This document shows positions 12,827 to 21,531 of a DNA stretch of 36,516 bases, in pieces. The stretch covers positions 1-36,516 of the forward strand of contig JAGHVJ010000032.1 of NCBI GenBank assembly GCA_018064365.1. The letters run 5' to 3'. The notes beneath the pieces were generated by a model. The model worked only from the letters and a program-made list of their open reading frames with translations. It was not told the origin of the DNA and did not search any database. A program made the translations under genes and the position numbers. Position 1 is the stretch's first letter. Every line of letters starts with the position of its first letter. The stretch is from Candidatus Enterousia onthequi (GTDB taxonomy: Bacteria; Pseudomonadota; Alphaproteobacteria; Rs-D84).

Positions 12827-13645
12827 TCATTCGTTGATGGAATCGAACAAGAGCCTGCGGAGATCTTCGTTAACCCTGACTTCGCCACCGCAGAGTTCCG
12901 CGCACTCCGAAGGACATTTCGAATCTTCCACGTTGTCGTAGCGGACCACCCAGCCTGACTCCGCTGGCAAGGAGCTAGTTCCCTCTGTTTTTTTCAATTG
13001 GGTCATTTGGCACCAACAATATAGACCTGTGTTGTCCTGGGGATTGCCGAGGTTAAACATTTCTCCACTGGTTTCGCTACATTTTGCAACACCTGTTATA
13101 ACGCCATATTCAAATACCGCCGCCCAATTCCCCGCCTTTGTGACATATTGGGGGTTATCGCTTTTACCACCCTCAAAATTCCAATATTCATCATCTGTTC
13201 CATTTACAGGCACTTGTGATAACAAAAATTCTTTAACTGTTTGCGGCTGTGGACCTGCTTCTTCTTGGTTTTGCTCGGCGCCTGAACCGTCTCCAGGCCC
13301 TGTGGCTGCAACTTTCTCTCTCTGTCTTTGGATTTCCGCTTGTTTTTCTGTTATACTTGCATCCAATGCAGAACTTTGCTTTTCCAGTTTATTTAATTTT
13401 ACCGCTTCACCTATATTTACACCAATCCCTACACCCGTCAGAGATAATGTCGTAATGCCAGAGATTTTAAATCCTTTGACCTTTTTCTCGCACTCTTGCA
13501 ATTCTTCCAAACCTGCTTGGTTTTGTGCCTGCAAACGTGCGATTTCCGCATCCAATTGTTGTATCGCCGCGGTATAATCCCCACCGGCATTTGCACACAT
13601 TGGTGCCAACATCATTATGGATACAGACAAATATTTTTTATACAT
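12827..13645 (-). CDS. Secreted coiled-coil protein with C-terminal WC/Cx3Cx3C module
   Basis: No named family is recognised. The 272 residues comprise: signal peptide (1-20, cleavage after ANA); a coiled coil (about 25-58); a glycine-rich hydrophobic stretch (61-80, ISGITTLSLTGVGIGVNIG) that could span or insert in a membrane; a second coiled coil (82-113); a Gly/Glu/Gln linker; and a C-terminal module (about 185-267). In the module S190-x-T-x-G194, G200-x-P202, G207-x-Y-x-W211-C212, C244-x3-C248-x3-C252 and L262-R-x-x-L266 match the protein at 20485-20952 at identical spacing. The terminal 160 bases are about 56% GC, above the surroundings. AGGGGA precedes the ATG. The gene follows 13665-14054 by 19 bases, so they are probably co-transcribed. 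Confidence 0.82.
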   Translation of the reverse strand: MYKKYLSVSIMMLAPMCANAGGDYTAAIQQLDAEIARLQAQNQAGLEELQECEKKVKGFKISGITTLSLTGVGIGVNIGEAVKLNKLEKQSSALDASITEKQAEIQRQREKVAATGPGDGSGAEQNQEEAGPQPQTVKEFLLSQVPVNGTDDEYWNFEGGKSDNPQYVTKAGNWAAVFEYGVITGVAKCSETSGEMFNLGNPQDNTGLYCWCQMTQLKKTEGTSSLPAESGWVVRYDNVEDSKCPSECAELCGGEVRVNEDLRRLLFDSINE

Positions 13646-13664
13646 TTTTATCCCCTGGGCTTAA

Positions 13665-14054
13665 TTATTGCAAATTGTTCAATGTATTTTGTTTTTCTGA
13701 TATTTCGTTTTTCTCGTCTTTTATCTTTTTTGCCTGGACCACAGCACCAATCGTTGTGCCAACCACACCCGCACCACCAATAATAGTTCCCGCCAACCAA
13801 CCTTTCTTGGCCTTGTCACACGCCAATTTATTTCTGGCAATTTCGTCAGCCTGCTGTTTTAATTGTTCGTAAAAAGCCTTTTTCTGTAAATATTCAGCCT
13901 CGTTATCTATAACCGCCGGTTGAGTATTTTCCGCAACCACAGCCGGCATTTGCGTCGGCACAGTCCCAGAAGATGTAACAGTAATTCCGGCATTCACAGG
14001 TGATATCACAACCAAAAAGCCCATCAGGCACACAGCAATATAGTATCTTTTCAT
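13665..14054 (-). CDS. Secreted glycine-zipper/coiled-coil protein
   Basis: A 129-residue protein of unknown function. It has a signal peptide (MKRYYIAVCLMGFLVVIS, cleavage near VNA), a short linker, a helical Gln/Lys/Glu-rich region with one Cys, then KGWLAGTIIGGAGVVGTTIG, a glycine-zipper-like hydrophobic segment. A charged helix follows (QAKKIKDEKNEISEKQ). The order helix, glycine zipper, coiled coil repeats that of the next gene, so the two look like paralogues, this one lacking the Cys module. ATG 14054 was selected because AGAGAG lies 7 bases upstream; two earlier Met codons are less well placed. Confidence 0.75.
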   Translation of the reverse strand: MKRYYIAVCLMGFLVVISPVNAGITVTSSGTVPTQMPAVVAENTQPAVIDNEAEYLQKKAFYEQLKQQADEIARNKLACDKAKKGWLAGTIIGGAGVVGTTIGAVVQAKKIKDEKNEISEKQNTLNNLQ

Positions 14055-14164
14055 AAGCATTCTCTCTTGTTTCTTACACTGCATTATATCATAAACCAGG
14101 ACTTCTGTCAAACATGGCGCAAAAAAAATACAATCTTTTGACCATGTTTTATTCTCCCGGTATT

Positions 14165-15625
14165 TTATTTTTTCACATCTGTTGCATCAGCACGCAATTT
14201 TTCTTTTGCCTTTTCTTTTTCTGCATTTTCTGCATCGACCACCGCACGACGTTCATCAACCGTCATTTGCATCTTGGTCATCGCAATAACCATACTGATT
14301 CCGCGTTGCAATTGATAATCCAATGCATCTTTTTCTTCTTCAGACAAATTATCATAATCTATATCTTCATCATCATCGTCATCTTTATTGCCAGATTTCG
14401 AATCGTTAGATTTTGTTTTCTTGGACTTTTTCGCATCTTCATTTTTCAAAGAATTTTTAAATGAAGCCTCGGAATAATCACTATCGCGTTTTTCCAAAAC
14501 TTTCACTTTGGATTGTAAAACCTGGACATCGGGTGTAATACCCTCGTTTTGAATAGAACGACCACTGGGGGTATAATACCGCGCAATTGTAATATGAATC
14601 GCCGTTCCATCACCCAAAGGTTTTTGTTGTTGCACACTGCCCTTGCCGAAACTCTGACTGCCCATAACCAATGCACGACCATTATCTTGCAATGCACCCG
14701 CCACAATTTCAGACGCCGATGCCGAACCATGATTTATCAAAACCACAATCGGTTTACCATTTGTCAAATCCCCAGGCTGTGCAAAATTGCGTTCGATATC
14801 TGTTTTTTCTTTCCCACGCGTAGAAACAATTTCACCATCATCCAAAAACGCATCAGACACACCAATTGCCGCTGTCAAATATCCGCCCGGATTATTACGC
14901 ACATCAACGATATAACCTGCGACCTTGTCTTTTTCTAATTTTTTAATTGCATCATTTAATTCTTTGACCGTTGTCGCACCAAATTCAGAAATACGAACAT
15001 AACCAATTTTCGGTGTATCTTCATCACCATCCGCCAATTGGACAACACGCGATTTCACAGATTTCACCTTGATAATATCACGTTTCAAAGTCAAAGTTTT
15101 TGTTTCATGATCTTCGTTCATAATGGTCAGTGTAACCTTGGTTCCAGGGCGTCCCTTCATTTTTTTCACCGCCTGGTTCAAAGTCATATCAAACACCTGT
15201 TCATCATCAATACGCATAATGTAATCACCTGCCTTGATTCCAGCACGCGCCGCAGGCGTATCATCAATCGGAGAAATCACACGAATCGCCCCACGGTCAG
15301 ATGTTATTTGAATTCCCAAACCACCAAATTCACCCTGGGTTTTATCATTAAAATCCTTGAAATCATCAAAATTCAAATAAGAAGAATGTGGATCTAATTC
15401 AGCCAACATACCGTTCATAGCGGCCTCTAACATTTTTTTCTCGTCGGCTTCTTCGACAAAATTATCGCGCGCCGTTTCAAACACCAACGCCAATTTTTGC
15501 AATTCGGTATAAATCTCTTCATCCGTTAAATGTTTTACAGGTTCTGTTTTATCAGATTTTTTACCTGCAAACCCGTTCACAGAAACCATCGCAACCATTA
15601 CAAAAACAAGGATTTTTTTCAACAT
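14165..15625 (-). CDS. ctpA: Carboxy-terminal processing protease (S41, PDZ)
   Basis: A periplasmic serine protease that trims C-termini and, in relatives, controls peptidoglycan hydrolases. Length is 486 residues. It has a signal peptide (1-20), an N-terminal helical region with AELDPHSSYL, a PDZ domain (about 98-185) containing GEFGGLGIQI and a GIKAGDYI segment, then the S41 catalytic domain. The catalytic dyad is S303 in GSASASEIVAGALQDNGRA and K328 in SFGKGSVQ, 25 residues apart as in the family. Unusual is a Lys/Ser then Asp-rich insert (about 405-430, with DDDDDEDIDYDN) before a C-terminal helix. It lies 120 bases downstream of envC in the same direction. Confidence 0.95.
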   Translation of the reverse strand: MLKKILVFVMVAMVSVNGFAGKKSDKTEPVKHLTDEEIYTELQKLALVFETARDNFVEEADEKKMLEAAMNGMLAELDPHSSYLNFDDFKDFNDKTQGEFGGLGIQITSDRGAIRVISPIDDTPAARAGIKAGDYIMRIDDEQVFDMTLNQAVKKMKGRPGTKVTLTIMNEDHETKTLTLKRDIIKVKSVKSRVVQLADGDEDTPKIGYVRISEFGATTVKELNDAIKKLEKDKVAGYIVDVRNNPGGYLTAAIGVSDAFLDDGEIVSTRGKEKTDIERNFAQPGDLTNGKPIVVLINHGSASASEIVAGALQDNGRALVMGSQSFGKGSVQQQKPLGDGTAIHITIARYYTPSGRSIQNEGITPDVQVLQSKVKVLEKRDSDYSEASFKNSLKNEDAKKSKKTKSNDSKSGNKDDDDDEDIDYDNLSEEEKDALDYQLQRGISMVIAMTKMQMTVDERRAVVDAENAEKEKAKEKLRADATDVKK

Positions 15626-15745
15626 AAAACCACCTTTCTCTTTCCTCTTAACTTATCACACACAAGCATATTATAAAAAAACAAATTCTGCAACACGAAA
15701 ATTTAAGTTTGCACAACACAAACGATACAATCGCAACAAATAAAT

Positions 15746-16822
15746 CTAGTTTTCTTCTTTGAATAATCGTGCCGGGTCAACCGCTTTGTTGCCACGGCGA
15801 ACCTCCATATACATTTCTTGTTTATCCGGACTGACACGACCGATTGGTTCACCCGCCAAAACTTCTTGATTTGGAACAACATCCAAACGTCCCATATTTG
15901 TAATCACAGTATTATAACCATTTTTATGAGACATAATAACCACACGTCCAAAACCACGGAAAGTATCTGCAAACTTTACCACACCATCCGCCGGCGCCGT
16001 CACCAAAGCGTCCCCATGTGTGCGAATTCGCCATCCATCAGACGTCAATCCTAATGCCGTTTTTTCACCAAACCGCACAACAATCCGTCCACGCACAGGC
16101 AAATTTAACTTGCGACGAGAAAACCGTGAATCCGCAGACATTTCAGAACTCCCCACCCCCGCAGACAATTCAGAAATATTTTTTGCACGTTCAGACAAAG
16201 CCTTTAATTTTTTTTGCAAAGCCAAATGTTCGCTTTTCAATTTTTCATTTTGCGCACTACGTGTCTTTAACAACTTGTCTAACTCATTTCGTTCGATAGT
16301 ATATTTTTTCGCAGTTCTATCTAATTTTTCCTTTTCAATACTGCGTTCATTGCGAATTTTTTCCAATTCTTCTAATTGCTTTGCTGCACGTTGAATTTCA
16401 TCATCGAATTGTCCAGACACCCCCGACAACACCGCAGACGCTAACACATAATCATGCATATTTTGAACATCAAAACTGGGGCGCATAGACATATATAAAA
16501 TCCCCGACACAGAATCATAAATATGTTCCTTGTTTGCCTCTAACTCTTTGGAAATTTTTTCGCGTTTCGCATCTAATTCATCTATTTTCGTCTGCATTTT
16601 TCCGCGTTGTTCTTCCAAAGAACTAACTCTATCGGCAGTCCGCACCAAATCTTTTTTCGTCTGAGCAACATTTTTTTCAGATTTTTTAACCTGTTCTTCT
16701 AACTTTTTGTTTTTTTGTTCAACTTGCTTTATCTCAGACTGAATACGCGACAACTCACTGGCGCAAAATCCAGGCACCGAAAAACAAAAACACCCAATTA
16801 AAATAATCAGTATTTTTTTCAT
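15746..16822 (-). CDS. envC: EnvC-like murein hydrolase activator, degenerate LytM domain
   Basis: A periplasmic activator of amidases at the division site. The 358 residues carry a signal peptide (1-20), a long coiled coil broken around residues 100-135 (about 22-215), and a C-terminal M23/LytM domain (about 235-355). The domain has LPVRGRIVVRFG, VTAPADGVVKFAD and the terminal EMYMEVRRGNKAVDP. The first zinc-ligand motif (H-x3-D) is missing, replaced by DGWRIRTHGDA, so it is expected to be non-catalytic like E. coli EnvC. Its likely partner is the amidase at 4242-5384. It starts 3 bases after the tyrS stop, implying coupled translation. Confidence 0.92.
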   Translation of the reverse strand: MKKILIILIGCFCFSVPGFCASELSRIQSEIKQVEQKNKKLEEQVKKSEKNVAQTKKDLVRTADRVSSLEEQRGKMQTKIDELDAKREKISKELEANKEHIYDSVSGILYMSMRPSFDVQNMHDYVLASAVLSGVSGQFDDEIQRAAKQLEELEKIRNERSIEKEKLDRTAKKYTIERNELDKLLKTRSAQNEKLKSEHLALQKKLKALSERAKNISELSAGVGSSEMSADSRFSRRKLNLPVRGRIVVRFGEKTALGLTSDGWRIRTHGDALVTAPADGVVKFADTFRGFGRVVIMSHKNGYNTVITNMGRLDVVPNQEVLAGEPIGRVSPDKQEMYMEVRRGNKAVDPARLFKEEN

Positions 16823-16825
16823 ATG

Positions 16826-18037
16826 CTATTTAACAATAACACGCAAAAATGTTTTCTTTCCTTTCTGGACCATATGTTCCCCAGGCAACACAACAAATTC
16901 TTTATCGATAATTTTTTCACCATCGATTTGAATACCGCCCTGCTCGACATTACGACGCGCATCAGATTTTGAATCAGATATTTTAATCGCAACCAAGAAA
17001 TCTAAAATCTTCATTGGCTCGGTCATTTCAAACTCAACACTGGGGACATTGGCACTGTTCGCGCCACCTGCAAACAAAGCCGCCGCCGCAGATTCTGCTG
17101 CCAATGCAGCATCCGTTCCATGTGCAATCTCGGTCGCCGCAAATGCCAAACGTTTTTTTGCCTCGTTCAATTCAGCCCCTTGCAACGCAGACAATTTTGC
17201 GATTTCATCCAATGGGATTTCTGTAAATATTTTCAAAAACTTTTCAACCAAATCATCCGGCACATTACGGAAATACTGATAATACTCATAAGGCGTAGTT
17301 TTATCTTCATTAACCCAGACCGCATTTCCCGCAGATTTTCCAATCTTGTTACCCGCAGAATCCGTAATCAACGCAGTTGATAAAACAAACGCTTCTTTGC
17401 CCAATTTTTTGCGTATCAATTCCACGCCCATAATTGCATTTCCCCATTGGTCAGCACCACACAACTGCAACACACAATTACGTTCTTGGAACAATGTTAA
17501 AAAGTCAACCGCCTGGAAAGTCATATAATTAAATTCCAAAAATGTCATACCATTATCCAAACGTTTTTTCACACTTTCCATAGACAACATACGCGGCACA
17601 GTAAAATCCATTCCGAATTTCGCCAAGAAATCCATATGAGAATATTTACTCATCCAATCATAGTTATCAACCATAACGGCATCATCCACACCATCACCAA
17701 ATTTCAAAAATTTAGAAAAAGATTTTTTCAACCCAGCCAAATTTTTCGCCAACACTTCATCTGTCAACACAGGACGTCCCTTGTCCCGTCCAGACGGGTC
17801 ACCAATGCGCCCCGTTGCACCACCCACCAAAGCAATTGGTTTATGTCCATATTTTTGCAACCAACGCATCATCATAACCGGCACCAAATGCCCCACATGC
17901 AAAGAATCACCCGTCGGGTCAGATCCCAAATAAGCAACCAAATTACCATTATCTAATAAATCTGCAACGGCATCCATATTCGAACATTGATTGATAAAAC
18001 CACGTTGTTCTAATTCATACATCAAATTGTTTTTCAT
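16826..18037 (-). CDS. tyrS: Tyrosyl-tRNA synthetase
   Basis: It charges tRNA-Tyr. Class I motifs are HVGH at 47-50 and KIGKS at 231-235. The Tyr-binding segment QLCGADQWGN is at 191-200. A C-terminal S4 RNA-binding domain includes SKSDARRNVEQGGIQIDG. Length 403 fits the TyrRS group common in proteobacteria. AAGAGG lies 8 bases before the ATG. It ends with TAG and runs into envC. Confidence 0.97.
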   Translation of the reverse strand: MKNNLMYELEQRGFINQCSNMDAVADLLDNGNLVAYLGSDPTGDSLHVGHLVPVMMMRWLQKYGHKPIALVGGATGRIGDPSGRDKGRPVLTDEVLAKNLAGLKKSFSKFLKFGDGVDDAVMVDNYDWMSKYSHMDFLAKFGMDFTVPRMLSMESVKKRLDNGMTFLEFNYMTFQAVDFLTLFQERNCVLQLCGADQWGNAIMGVELIRKKLGKEAFVLSTALITDSAGNKIGKSAGNAVWVNEDKTTPYEYYQYFRNVPDDLVEKFLKIFTEIPLDEIAKLSALQGAELNEAKKRLAFAATEIAHGTDAALAAESAAAALFAGGANSANVPSVEFEMTEPMKILDFLVAIKISDSKSDARRNVEQGGIQIDGEKIIDKEFVVLPGEHMVQKGKKTFLRVIVK

Positions 18038-18113
18038 TTTTCAAACCTCTTTTACACAAGATTTTTAGATATTTGCGGGTTAGTAATCTTTTTCTATATC
18101 AAACCAAAAATTT

Positions 18114-18380
18114 TTAGCGATGATACACAAGTTTCATACGTGATGCCAGCTGTTTAAGAACTTCATCGCGTGTTCCAGTATAAACATGTTCATATTTACA
18201 AACATCTAACTTGCCTGTTTTATAATTTTTCTGAACATGCAAAGTATTAAACGATACATAATACGTTCCATTAGAAAATCTGTAGCAACGCATCCCTTTT
18301 ACTCTATTATCTATTACATACTTCACTGCTGCAGAATTTTCTTTTGCCAACATAATTTTTTGCGCCTTATTTGATTTCAT
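18114..18380 (-). CDS. Small basic protein of unknown function
   Basis: The 88-residue product is rich in Lys, Arg and Tyr, with no signal peptide or membrane segment. A GAGGT Shine-Dalgarno sits 5 bases before the ATG, and a TTGGTT-17-TATGTA promoter lies upstream, which supports a real gene. The middle reads as alternating beta-strand pattern (MRCYRFSNGTYYVSF, YEHVYTGT) followed by a C-terminal helix (DEVLKQLASRM). I do not recognise a family; a nucleic-acid-binding role is only a guess from charge. Confidence 0.7.
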   Translation of the reverse strand: MKSNKAQKIMLAKENSAAVKYVIDNRVKGMRCYRFSNGTYYVSFNTLHVQKNYKTGKLDVCKYEHVYTGTRDEVLKQLASRMKLVYHR

Positions 18381-18411
18381 TTTTTACCTCTGTGTTTTAC
18401 AACTAATTTAT

Positions 18412-18440
18412 TACATAAAAACCAATATAATAATAACCAA
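18412..18440 (-). promoter_or_regulatory. Promoter of the 88-residue protein
   Basis: TTGGTT, 17 bases, TATGTA on the minus strand, with a predicted start near 18405. Confidence 0.45.
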
Positions 18441-18467
18441 ACTCAAAAAAATTTTCAACCATCTTTA

Positions 18468-18500
18468 TAAAAAAATCGCGCCACGATTGCGACGCGATTT
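18468..18500 (-). terminator. Terminator of rpsB-tsf
   Basis: AAATCGCG and CGCGATTT form an 8-bp stem with a 12-base loop. On the minus strand it is followed by a T-rich run, 20 bases past the tsf stop. Confidence 0.8.
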
Positions 18501-18519
18501 CATACAAATTTGCAAAATA

Positions 18520-19389
18520 TTATTGCAACATTTTTGCAACTTCATCAGCCAAGTTATCTTCGCGTTTTTGGATACCTTCGCCCAAAACATAATACGCAAA
18601 GCCCGCCAATTTACCACCTGCGGCCTCGACAACCTGTTTTACTGTCTGATTTGGATCCATAACAAATGGTTGTTCTTCCAAAACAGATTCTGCATAATAT
18701 TTGCTCAAACGACCTTGAACCATTTTTTCAACAATGTTTTCTGGTTTTCCATTTGTCGCCCCAGATTCAATAAACACACGCCGTTCACGTTCAACCGCGA
18801 CTGGGTCTACATCTGCAATCGTCATATATTCTGGTTTGTTTGCAGCAATGTGCATTGCAATTTTTGGTCCAATTTCATCAATTTTTGGATTGTCTCCATT
18901 GATTGCAACAGCAACACCAATTTGTCCCATACCTGGCACCAATGCATTGTGAATATAAGAATACACGTGATCACCAGAAACACGAGCCACACGACGCAAA
19001 CTCATATTTTCACCAATTGTAGAAATTGTTGCCGCAATATCATCGCTAACTGCTTTCAATGTAGCATCAAAGTCACCTTGCAATTCCAATGCTTTGTTTG
19101 CAACATTTGCGACCAATTGTTGGAATTTTTCATTTTTAGCCACGAAATCAGTTTCCGCGTTCAATTCAACAACACAACCCAAATTATCGCATTTAACCAC
19201 AGTCACCAATCCAGATGCCGCAACACGACCAGCCTTGGATGCTGCCTTGACAATACCTTTTTTACGCAACCAATCAGCCGCCGCATCAATATCACCATTA
19301 TTTTCAATCAATGCTTTTTTGCAATCCAACATACCTGCTGCGGTTTTTTCGCGCAATTCTTGAATCAATTTTGCTGTTACTTCTGCCAT
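18520..19389 (-). CDS. tsf: Elongation factor Ts
   Basis: Nucleotide exchange factor for EF-Tu. The N-terminal UBA-like signature LREKTAAGMLDCKKAL is at residues 12-27, followed by GDIDAAADWLRKKG. The core includes VELNAETDFVAKN and the C-terminal segment has VLEEQPFVMDPNQTV. Length 289 is normal. AAGGAA lies 8 bases before the ATG. It is the second gene of rpsB-tsf, with a hairpin in the gap. Confidence 0.97.
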   Translation of the reverse strand: MAEVTAKLIQELREKTAAGMLDCKKALIENNGDIDAAADWLRKKGIVKAASKAGRVAASGLVTVVKCDNLGCVVELNAETDFVAKNEKFQQLVANVANKALELQGDFDATLKAVSDDIAATISTIGENMSLRRVARVSGDHVYSYIHNALVPGMGQIGVAVAINGDNPKIDEIGPKIAMHIAANKPEYMTIADVDPVAVERERRVFIESGATNGKPENIVEKMVQGRLSKYYAESVLEEQPFVMDPNQTVKQVVEAAGGKLAGFAYYVLGEGIQKREDNLADEVAKMLQ

Positions 19390-19425
19390 TGTAATTTCCT
19401 TATCTTTTTATTGATATTGACTTAA

Positions 19426-19448
19426 ATTCGGGGCGAAACACCCCGAAT
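19426..19448 (-). terminator. Hairpin between rpsB and tsf (attenuator-like)
   Basis: ATTCGGGG and CCCCGAAT form a perfect 8-bp stem with a 7-base loop between the two genes. The T-run after it is weak, so it probably only attenuates. An intergenic hairpin at this place is also known in other bacteria and can balance S2 and EF-Ts levels. Confidence 0.6.
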
Positions 19449-19457
19449 CCACTATAA

Positions 19458-20300
19458 TTATTTGTCAGCCTTTTTTTCACGACGTTCTGCGCGTGCTTCG
19501 GACATTTTTGATTTTTGTTTTGCTTCTTTGTCCTTGGCTTCTGCCTCTATTTCATCAGCCACAGCATCAGTTGCATCAACATCTGCTTTTTTGGCCGCAG
19601 CACCGCCCAAACGTTTTTCAATACCAGACAAAATTGCATCTACGAACAAATCACAGTACAATTGTGTCGCACGTGCCGCATCATCATTACCCGGCACAGG
19701 ATAATCGACCATTTCTGGATTTGCATTAGTATCGCAAATAGCAATTGTTGGAATATCCAAATTCTTTGCTTCGCGCACAGCGTTCATTTCACGTGGCACA
19801 TCAATAACAATCATCGCCTGGGGTGTTCCATGCATTTCCAAAATACCGCCAAATACAGAACGCAATTTTTCAACTTCTTTGGTCATAACGCCAACTTCTT
19901 TCTTGGTCAATCCCAATTTGTCAGCATTTGCAATATCGTTTTCCATTTTTTTCAAACGACGAATACTCTGTGAAACAGTTATCCAGTTAGTCAACATACC
20001 ACCCAACCAACGATTGTTCACATAATATTGACCACAACGTTCCGCAGCATCTTTGACAATGTCTTTGGCCTGGTGCTTGGTTGCAACGAACAAAACCTTG
20101 CCCCCAGCCGCAGCCACCGCTTCTAATGCGACCAAAGCGCGATGCATCAAAGGTGCAGTTTTATTCAAATTGATAATGTGAATTTTGTCTTTGACACCGT
20201 AAACATATGGGGTCATCAACGGGTTCCAACGACGAGTGTGGTGTCCGAAATGAACGCCAGCCTCCATCAATTGTTTCATAGTAAATGTAGGCAATGCCAT
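19458..20300 (-). CDS. rpsB: 30S ribosomal protein uS2
   Basis: A late-assembling small-subunit protein that helps S1 bind. Signatures are MEAGVHFGHHTRRWNP at residues 12-27, NNRWLGGMLTNW, and IAICDTNANPEMVDYPVPGNDDA. Length is 280, with a charged C-terminal tail of about 45 residues rich in Ala, Lys and Glu, longer than in E. coli. AAGGA lies upstream of the ATG. The 184-base gap upstream (20301-20484) holds a leader of about 100 bases. It includes a small CGCG-TAAA-CGCG hairpin (near 20395-20406) and possible promoters such as TTGATT-17-CAAAAT; I see no recognised leader RNA. Confidence 0.97.
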   Translation of the reverse strand: MALPTFTMKQLMEAGVHFGHHTRRWNPLMTPYVYGVKDKIHIINLNKTAPLMHRALVALEAVAAAGGKVLFVATKHQAKDIVKDAAERCGQYYVNNRWLGGMLTNWITVSQSIRRLKKMENDIANADKLGLTKKEVGVMTKEVEKLRSVFGGILEMHGTPQAMIVIDVPREMNAVREAKNLDIPTIAICDTNANPEMVDYPVPGNDDAARATQLYCDLFVDAILSGIEKRLGGAAAKKADVDATDAVADEIEAEAKDKEAKQKSKMSEARAERREKKADK

Positions 20301-20484
20301 TTTTTATCCTTTTTTCTGTTAATTCCTCGTTCCCGTGGATTTAGCCAAAAACAATATGTTATGGACAGAATCAACCACGAAAACTGTGTTCTTCGCGTAA
20401 ACGCGTAGCCCAATTTTGGCATAAACATATTGAAAAATCAAGTGTTTTTACAAAAAAATCCAGGTTTCAACAACCCGGGAAATT

Positions 20485-20952
20485 CTATCTTGCACCATAA
20501 TCTTTACCAACCAAACCAGACATCACATTTGGCTTTGCCAGCAGAGCAGAACGCAAACTATCAAAAACACTGGCATCATGCGTACAGTGATATAAACATT
20601 TCGCAGCACAATCATTTACATCATAATCAGCCGCGCATTCAAATCTCCGATATTCGCCACAACAAACCCACGGCCCAAACGAACCGCCTGCATATTTAAA
20701 GCGACACCATGCATACCTACCATGCACTGGCACAGGACTTCCTATTTCCCAGCGTTTTCCCGCAGTCTTAGACGACATCACATCAACTTCTACAATTTGC
20801 GGACACAACTGTTGCAGTTTTGGGAAAAATAATGTCGTCACAAAAGAACTGCAATATATATTCTGTCCACGATAACGTTCTGTGCGTTGCCCACCAACCC
20901 AGATACCTTGTGCATTTACCGCAATATATTCTGTATTTGAAATACCAGACAT
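20485..20952 (-). CDS. Stand-alone WC/Cx3Cx3C-module protein, unknown function
   Basis: A 155-residue protein with nine cysteines and no signal peptide. It begins with beta-rich sequence (YIAVNAQGIWVGG, then YRGQNIY at 27-33). S61-x-T-x-G65, G71-x-P73, G78-x-Y-x-W82-C83, C115-x3-C119-x3-C123 and L133-R-x-x-L137 follow. These positions match the secreted protein at 12827-13645 with a constant offset of 129 residues and no gap. About 18 of 78 residues are identical in my hand alignment. VGG, YRGQ, G-x-P and HG-x3-W are shared with the upstream neighbour at 20968-21531, a tandem paralogue. The ATG lies 15 bases after that gene's stop; its Shine-Dalgarno is weak (AAGATAAGA). Function and location are unknown. 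Confidence 0.75.
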   Translation of the reverse strand: MSGISNTEYIAVNAQGIWVGGQRTERYRGQNIYCSSFVTTLFFPKLQQLCPQIVEVDVMSSKTAGKRWEIGSPVPVHGRYAWCRFKYAGGSFGPWVCCGEYRRFECAADYDVNDCAAKCLYHCTHDASVFDSLRSALLAKPNVMSGLVGKDYGAR

Positions 20953-20967
20953 TTCTTATCTTTTTAT

Positions 20968-21531
20968 TTATCGTCCCATCCCCTGTTTTTCAACAGTGAC
21001 GTTATAACCGTTCAACTTTATTTGTCCAACCAACTGCGCCCAATCTATTCCGGTCAATTTTTGAATTTCTCGTTGTCGAGCATTTTGTTTTTGTAATGTC
21101 GGTTCCGCCAATACCGCCGAATAAAAAGCCCCACCTGCATCAATAGAATTCACACAACCACTCAATCCTAATTTTGCAGCAACATCTTTATCATCGCTAT
21201 ACTTGTAATTAAATACAATATTTCCATATTTAGCATTATCAAATTCTACAAAAGCCCACACATTTGCACCATGCTCAAAAACCGGTCTACCAGATTTGGC
21301 ATGTTCACCACGCATTGTCGAAGTAAACACATGCAACGCCACAACATGTGGATTTTTCTGTTGCATACGTTCAAATTTAACTATGACATCACCAATATTG
21401 TTTATTTCTTGACCACGATAATGTGTTGCAGATTCGCCACCAACAAAAACACCAACTTTACCGTCTAATCCCTTTTTTACAACAACACATTTATCAAATT
21501 CAATCTTGTATTCCGATGTAATCTTATCCAT
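20968..21531 (-). CDS. Paralogue of the WC-module protein, cysteines lost
   Basis: A 187-residue protein of unknown function without a signal peptide. VGG (30-32), YRGQEI (38-43), S71...G75, G81-x-P83, HG88 and W92 align with the downstream neighbour without gaps. The Cys after Trp is Ala, and about seven residues covering the C-x3-C-x3-C motif are missing; both proteins resume with YSAVLAEP versus RSALLAKP. A C-terminal extension (about 145-187) has a helix and a final strand. AAGGGA lies 8 bases before the ATG. The pair forms a two-gene unit between an outer-membrane barrel gene and rpsB. Confidence 0.75.
   Translation of the reverse strand: MDKITSEYKIEFDKCVVVKKGLDGKVGVFVGGESATHYRGQEINNIGDVIVKFERMQQKNPHVVALHVFTSTMRGEHAKSGRPVFEHGANVWAFVEFDNAKYGNIVFNYKYSDDKDVAAKLGLSGCVNSIDAGGAFYSAVLAEPTLQKQNARQREIQKLTGIDWAQLVGQIKLNGYNVTVEKQGMGR

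Follow-up and report, generated by a model that had tools for sequence, protein, structure and literature searches.

A six-cysteine module of Candidatus Enterousia as the probable variable domain of a chromosomal diversity-generating retroelement

Introduction

A stretch of 36,516 nucleotides from Candidatus Enterousia onthequi, a member of the alphaproteobacterial order Rs-D84 (GenBank assembly GCA_018064365.1, contig JAGHVJ010000032.1, positions 1 to 36,516 of the forward strand), here termed the window, encodes three proteins, P0001, P0002 and P0003, in which the initial annotation had recognized a previously unnamed cysteine module. The locus raises the question of what kind of domain this module is, and how it comes to be attached to an exported-looking coiled-coil protein as well as to small proteins devoid of a signal peptide. 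As set out below, the module very probably constitutes the variable-protein domain of a chromosomal diversity-generating retroelement (DGR) in bacteria of the Ca. Enterousia type. At the level of sequence, the features of a DGR are apparent: a template repeat (TR) on the strand of the reverse transcriptase (RT), changes restricted to adenines, and dispersed targets with and without signal peptides. The original reading as an unnamed domain was right in that the module is real, but it missed that the C-terminal half corresponds to a DGR variable repeat (VR), which accounts for both the C-terminal placement of the module and its odd conservation pattern.

The retroelement of the Ca. E. onthequi genome

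In eleven matches of the module profile, no more than the last half of the module was present; these matches lay in otherwise non-coding-looking frames and had an asparagine-rich consensus, and thus have the look of a DGR template. In the protein, the VR is the second half of the module (WVF...C-x3-C-x3-C...FR). The source genome of the window contains a single RVT_1 match, on contig C17 (89682-90233), where a target gene of 432 codons, the TR, an open reading frame (ORF) of 108 amino acids and an RT of 343 amino acids follow each other in this order. The target gene has a signal-like start and carries the module at its end, while the best PDB match of the RT is 8ub7_A (E 1.5e-46), which we take to be the DGR RT of Bordetella phage BPP-1.

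Comparison of the TR with the core of the VR in cis reveals differences at 16 of 26 adenines and at 0 of 79 other bases, and adenine change would yield about 10^15 variants from this template. In addition to the cis VR, the template is matched by a gene on contig C5 that lacks a signal peptide (3 mismatches in a 96-base pattern; 6 of 79 non-adenine positions) and, with 7 of 79 non-adenine mismatches, by one gene on C29, likewise a relative of P0002. Proteins of the P0002 subfamily without signal peptide therefore are, or recently were, targets. Two further VRs of this genome, one on C8 with apparently one codon deleted and a second one on C29, differ at 16 and 20 of the 79 non-adenine positions, respectively.

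Reverse transcriptases, templates and targets across the order

Of 114 genomes examined from the order, 34 contain a similar RT, the match being strong in 30. All of the 30 strongest RTs are free of stop codons and possess both a Y[CS]DD and a GN-x-x-SQ box; the SQ box is a mark of DGR RTs. Within the stretches examined, 21 of the 30 loci carry an asparagine-rich template copy on the RT strand; in 20 cases it lies 217-1339 bp ahead of the RT, and in one on the far side. In 25 of 26 templates, a stop codon is unreachable by adenine mutation. At one RT locus (L296), in a genome that is not among the module matches, an asparagine-rich stretch of a different pattern lies upstream of the RT and is possibly the template for another target family.

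The adenine pattern is not confined to one genome. Among 34 same-genome TR-VR pairs from 23 genomes, 461 of 858 adenines are changed, as opposed to 22 of 1046 cytosines, 21 of 964 guanines and 17 of 702 thymines, corresponding to 53.7% mismatch at A versus 2.1-2.4% at C, G and T (60/2712 in total for non-A); since the pairs are those with at most 12% non-adenine mismatch, cross-genome and template-template pairs being left out, the non-A rate is bounded by construction and the A rate is not. Loci were assigned to genomes manually from the locus table, and the C8 VR and the second C29 VR, lying beyond the 12% cut, are outside this count.

Several genes may share one template. Genome G070 contains one template, near a contig end, and six VRs on five contigs with at most 3 mismatches outside template adenines (0 matches for a reversed-pattern control), and in G079 a template is accompanied by three matching places, so that one template can serve several dispersed genes. 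Moreover, RT and module tend to occur together: modules are present in 28 of the 30 genomes with a strong RT match versus 48 of the 84 others (Fisher p 2e-4), counted by hand with both 114-genome sets taken as the same draw and with four genomes of weaker RT matches (G010, G020, G023 and G050) included among the 84.

A further constituent of these loci is a protein of about 108 amino acids, found ahead of the RT at 29 of the 30 loci (L267-L296). The copy of the source genome has neither a Pfam match nor, at a threshold of E 0.1, one in NCBIfam, a library that includes the Avd model; one divergent copy yields only weak PHROG (E 0.019) and NCBIfam (E 0.092) matches, and no convincing PDB match was obtained (best E 0.23). 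This protein is a candidate for a new DGR accessory protein. Locus L269 also encodes, at positions 707-1084, a four-helix-bundle protein (TIGR02436, E 5e-32), which matches the Avd model below the cut-off (E 0.022).

Distribution and conservation of the module

Candidatus Enterousia and its relatives possess a family of paralogues in which the module mostly occupies the C-terminus. Within the source genome, relatives of P0002 are encoded on contigs C7, C29 (two) and C5, and the P0001 module recurs in exported-looking proteins on C22, C25, C17 and C8. A profile built from three module sequences, of which the P0001 module is one, gave matches in 76 of the 114 genomes, which represent 7 of the 18 genera of the order, and as many as 30 in one genome. 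In a sample of the class, matches were confined to 4 of 289 genomes: that of the window, two others of its genus and G338, which belongs to another order and is the sole match among 33 genomes of that order. Taken as a single query, P0002 was found in 6 of 40 relatives, the source genome included, all belonging to one genus. The expectation that a profile search would find further members is thereby confirmed, and the proposal of a lineage-specific domain used in several architectures, with and without signal peptide, largely holds. In G338, the module is represented by three distant copies (L251, L254 and L257), one of which has a C-terminal hydrophobic stretch.

All six cysteines are retained in 179 of 209 aligned domains. 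In the eight aligned domains of proteins without signal peptide, Cys 2 is absent throughout, while Cys 1 is unaligned in seven and replaced by serine in one; the last four cysteines are retained in seven of the eight. The module ends at most 10 residues from the end of the ORF in 133 of 145 full-length domains. These cysteine and ORF-end counts refer to domains from retrieved stretches rather than whole genomes, with duplicates removed by containment. A signal-like N-terminus was assigned by a crude home-made rule to 134 of 147 ORFs with a full module versus 165 of 517 other ORFs; a laxer rule of the same kind gave 144 of 147, with no control set.

A search by motif pattern was used alongside the profile, and 14 of 76 genome stretches found in this way lack a profile match. 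Named records among its matches include Candidatus Enterousia and metagenome-assembled genomes labelled Rickettsiales, which, going by their isolate names, we read as deriving from termite guts. Of the 14 stretches with no profile match, eight that had been removed as duplicates (L129, L135, L141, L147, L158, L170, L183 and L184) are module matches, and six (L126, L137, L156, L162, L177 and L193) come from other organisms and were taken as chance. A phage origin was dismissed: P0001-P0003 gave only weak PHROGs matches (best E 0.012), and 1 of 54 viral-contig stretches found by pattern (L232) has the module by profile. This stretch, in which a large bacterial surface-protein gene lies beside phage-like genes (read by eye, with no family search), was interpreted as a provirus flank. 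Giant module proteins were likewise discarded, the one very long open frame inspected having run through masked sequence.

The genes of the window

The minus-strand placement and the coordinates of the three window genes are as first described (Table 1), as are the positions of the motifs: C210-W211-C212 of P0001 faces W82-C83 of P0002, and C-x3-C-x3-C begins 32 residues after WC in both, at C244 and C115, respectively.

Table 1. Features of the three genes in the window and of the retroelement locus on contig C17 (window positions unless a contig or locus is given)
Feature	Position	Strand	Remarks
P0001, 272-aa protein	12827..13645	minus	signal-like N-terminus (MYKKYLSVSIMMLAPMCANA), coiled coil, glycine-rich segment, C-terminal Cys module
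Six-Cys module of P0001, residues 174-272	12830..13126	minus	C189, C210, C212, C244, C248, C252
P0001 segment homologous to DGR variable repeat, residues 232-272	12830..12952	minus	from sequence comparison with the TR
P0002, 155-aa protein	20485..20952	minus	no recognisable signal peptide; module version without first two Cys
P0002 module core, residues 61-139	20536..20772	minus	from pairwise and profile alignments
P0003, 187-aa tandem homologue of P0002	20968..21531	minus	without the Cys set of the module
Template repeat (TR)	C17:88629-88757	RT strand	between target gene and 108-aa ORF
108-aa ORF of the source genome (C17)	L258:5099-5422		directly upstream of RT

The gap-free pairing from which a common module of P0001 and P0002 had been deduced does not suffice by itself, since its 18 identities over 78 positions were equalled on some diagonal in 171 of 500 shuffles of P0002. 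The register is due to two insertions that cancel, one separating CWC from W-V in P0001, the other separating W-V from the start of C-x3-C-x3-C in P0002, and was dismissed as homology evidence, being a coincidence of two indels. Once gaps are allowed, the two proteins are indeed related, as indicated by single-pair BLASTP (E 2e-6) and by hhalign of the family profile with P0002 (E 1.9e-5, probability 78%). As for the third proposed bearer of the module, P0003 is a homologue of P0002 (E 4.5e-10) that has lost the Cys set, and it misses E 0.001 with the module profile.

The C-terminal part of P0001 matches proteins of the source genome on contigs C22 (E 2.5e-5) and C25 (E 0.0036). For its N-terminal part, a relative is encoded on C21 (E 1.3e-12), and the stalk is thus shared independently of the module. 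Adjoining P0001, at 13665-14111 of the minus strand, lies a gene for an exported-looking coiled-coil, glycine-rich protein of 148 amino acids. Farther along the window, a minus-strand gene at 23202-24728 matches PF17251 (Protochlamydia outer membrane protein; E 5.9e-10, above the Pfam cut-off).

Predicted fold of the module

AlphaFold2 predicts strands followed by two helices for residues 155-272 of P0001 (pLDDT 81.8, pTM 0.76), the first helix (model residues 87-104) bearing C-x3-C-x3-C. The model of P0002 displays the same order of elements (pLDDT 76.9, pTM 0.73). The idea of one shared fold is thereby weakly supported: both models consist of strands and then two helices, but the two predictions share alignment rows. 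Alignments of the module with P0002 misplaced the N-terminal part, and rows were trimmed before the P0002 prediction.

The template encodes the pattern C-A-N-N-C-A-N-N-C-A-N-N-V-R-N-N. On a helical wheel, its cysteines and alanines fall at 0-180 degrees and its eight asparagines from 200 through 360 to 60, an arrangement that would place most of the hypermutable positions on a single outer face.

Comparisons with known families and structures returned little. When 65 members were compared with Pfam and NCBIfam, no C-type-lectin family appeared among the matches with E of 1 or less, and a sequence search of PDB with the module gave nothing at E 10 or better. Foldseek gave no match at E up to 0.001 in PDB for both models and in BFVD for the P0001 module, and none among the 50 PDB matches listed bears a C-type lectin label. 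In structural comparison with VIA, the best matches were a Plk4 polo box for the P0001 module (Z 3.9, 67 aligned, rmsd 2.9) and a viral glycoprotein for P0002 (Z 4.4, 97 aligned, rmsd 4.0), Z scores in the range that the tool terms common arrangements. A relationship to the Pfam family META, the most frequent match, was discarded as too weak (9 of 65 members, best E 0.0095). A six-cysteine scaffold with no detected C-type-lectin relationship, whose variable positions are predicted to lie on one helix face, is possibly new.

Proposed mechanism and alternative explanations

By analogy with known DGRs, RNA of the TR would be reverse-transcribed with errors at adenines, and the resulting cDNA would replace the 3' end of target genes. 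The cysteines and alanines may form the inner face of a helix that disulfides probably tether to a small sheet, with the asparagine codons specifying an outer, hypermutable binding face. Exported copies would display the module at the tip of varied stalks, probably binding partner cells or gut surfaces.

Several findings weigh against this assignment or parts of it. Mutagenic retrohoming is itself something that we infer from known DGRs, and the fold is a medium-confidence prediction, the disulfides being likewise conjectural. Besides the selection of the TR-VR pairs described above, 9 of the 30 RT loci show no template copy in the stretch examined, and RT families name no DGR type: the best NCBIfam match is a group II intron RT, below the cut-off, and PADLOC and PHROGs report a general RT and a reverse transcriptase, respectively, neither of which is DGR-specific. 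The modules in the 48 genomes with no strong RT match imply either that the domain is independent of an active DGR or that the RT is often lost or unbinned; in the single-contig genome G050, 10 module matches coexist with an RT fragment interrupted by an in-frame stop, probably a decayed DGR whose target family has been retained. Moreover, P0001 and P0002 differ from the TR at 39 and 44 of 79 non-adenine positions, respectively, and the variable sites of P0001 include Lys and Glu codons, which are unreachable from AAY by adenine change. Seven of the 12 variable-site codons of P0001 end in C or T. No window position on either strand, P0003 included, exceeds 55% identity to the TR at non-adenine positions in ungapped comparison. 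Judged by their sequences, P0001 and P0002 are not current targets of the DGR of their own genome. The three window genes belong to the protein family but have ceased to match the template, and are thus most plausibly one-time targets, now frozen, or side branches.

A different history, in which the module is an ordinary exported Cys-rich binding domain, a DGR took over some copies at a later time and the window genes have at no time been targets, is a serious contender, though somewhat short of an even chance. It would suit the modules in genomes with no strong RT match and the distance of P0001 and of the C22 and C25 proteins from the TR (39, 41 and 43 of 79 non-adenine mismatches), as well as the clearly similar relatives of C25-type proteins in several genomes and the distant module copies in G338, whose DGR content was not searched for. 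On the contrary, the C5 gene and one C29 gene, relatives of P0002 without signal peptide, are template copies, RT and module co-occur, and the module usually occupies the extreme C-terminus, like DGR targets. We consider it unlikely that the module is a distant C-type lectin fold, even though the model is of medium confidence only and the available excerpt of Roux et al. (2021, PMC8144416) describes annotated VR regions as systematically C-type lectins and expects uncharacterised VR domains to be new variants thereof; neither sequence families nor PDB sequences nor Foldseek gave a C-type-lectin match at the thresholds used, the modelled order of strands and then two C-terminal helices speaks against it, and the periodicity of Asn, Cys and Ala in the template suits an amphipathic helix.

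Binding of zinc or an iron-sulfur cluster by the conserved cysteines is less probable still. The retention of the last four cysteines and not the first two in seven of eight domains lacking a signal peptide would fit the reducing cytosol, but exported copies combine six near-invariant cysteines with a signal-like N-terminus, the joint absence of Cys 1 and Cys 2 resembles the loss of one disulfide, and P0003 is devoid of the Cys set. Least credible of all, and indeed very improbable, is a C-terminal sorting or anchoring signal in place of a binding domain: the position near the ORF end in 133 of 145 modules, the varied N-termini and the many copies per genome could be so explained, but hypermutation is not expected of a sorting signal, the module also occurs on copies without signal peptide, and 12 of the 145 lie farther from the ORF end.

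Relation to known systems and significance

With the canonical DGRs, exemplified by Bordetella phage BPP-1, the system of Ca. Enterousia shares an RT with YxDD and SQ boxes, a TR, a C-terminal VR and adenine-restricted differences. In contrast to these, it is chromosomal, its target has no detected C-type-lectin similarity, and a protein of about 108 amino acids with no Avd-model match precedes the RT. The comparisons with other systems draw on excerpts of the papers cited. The DGR of Treponema denticola (TvpA) likewise employs one TR for dispersed surface-protein genes, with two to seven targets per isolate (PMC4891356); its targets are C-type lectins, whereas here a six-Cys module is found, with six trans VRs (at most 3 mismatches) in one genome. 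Remote targets are also reported for cellular DGRs of cyanobacteria and Thiohalocapsa (PMC7517822, PMC10907252), most cyanobacterial variable proteins being predicted to be cytosolic (PMC7517822). The targets in these organisms are C-type lectins, some of them fused to kinases or NTPases, as opposed to the small proteins with a Cys module described here.

Several VRs occur in 271 of 948 non-redundant DGRs, mostly with one template (PMC6642488), and several targets per template are therefore not new. Multiple, remote and cytosolic targets are, according to the same excerpts, each already known from other DGRs (PMC4891356, PMC6642488, PMC7517822, PMC10907252). The excerpt of the multi-VR genome survey holds no statement on a Cys module that we could find (PMC6642488), and in the open-licence literature no paper was found that joins Enterousia and a retroelement. 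According to the literature, DGR targets are almost without exception C-type lectins, and remote targets have been missed in metagenome surveys (PMC8144416); the order of Ca. Enterousia is reported to consist of symbionts or parasites, apparently obligate ones, whose genomes are reduced (PMC12306168). The composite picture of a host-dependent gut lineage whose DGR would act on a disulfide-laddered target other than a C-type lectin, displaying a hypermutable helix face, draw on a single template for exported as well as cytosolic proteins and use a non-Avd accessory protein is, in our estimate, slightly favoured.

If true, a scaffold other than a C-type lectin that tolerates random mutation of a helix face would show DGRs to be compatible with more than a single fold, and protein engineering would gain a small, disulfide-bonded alternative. 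For the organism, the DGR constitutes a concrete candidate for how Ca. Enterousia recognises partner cells.

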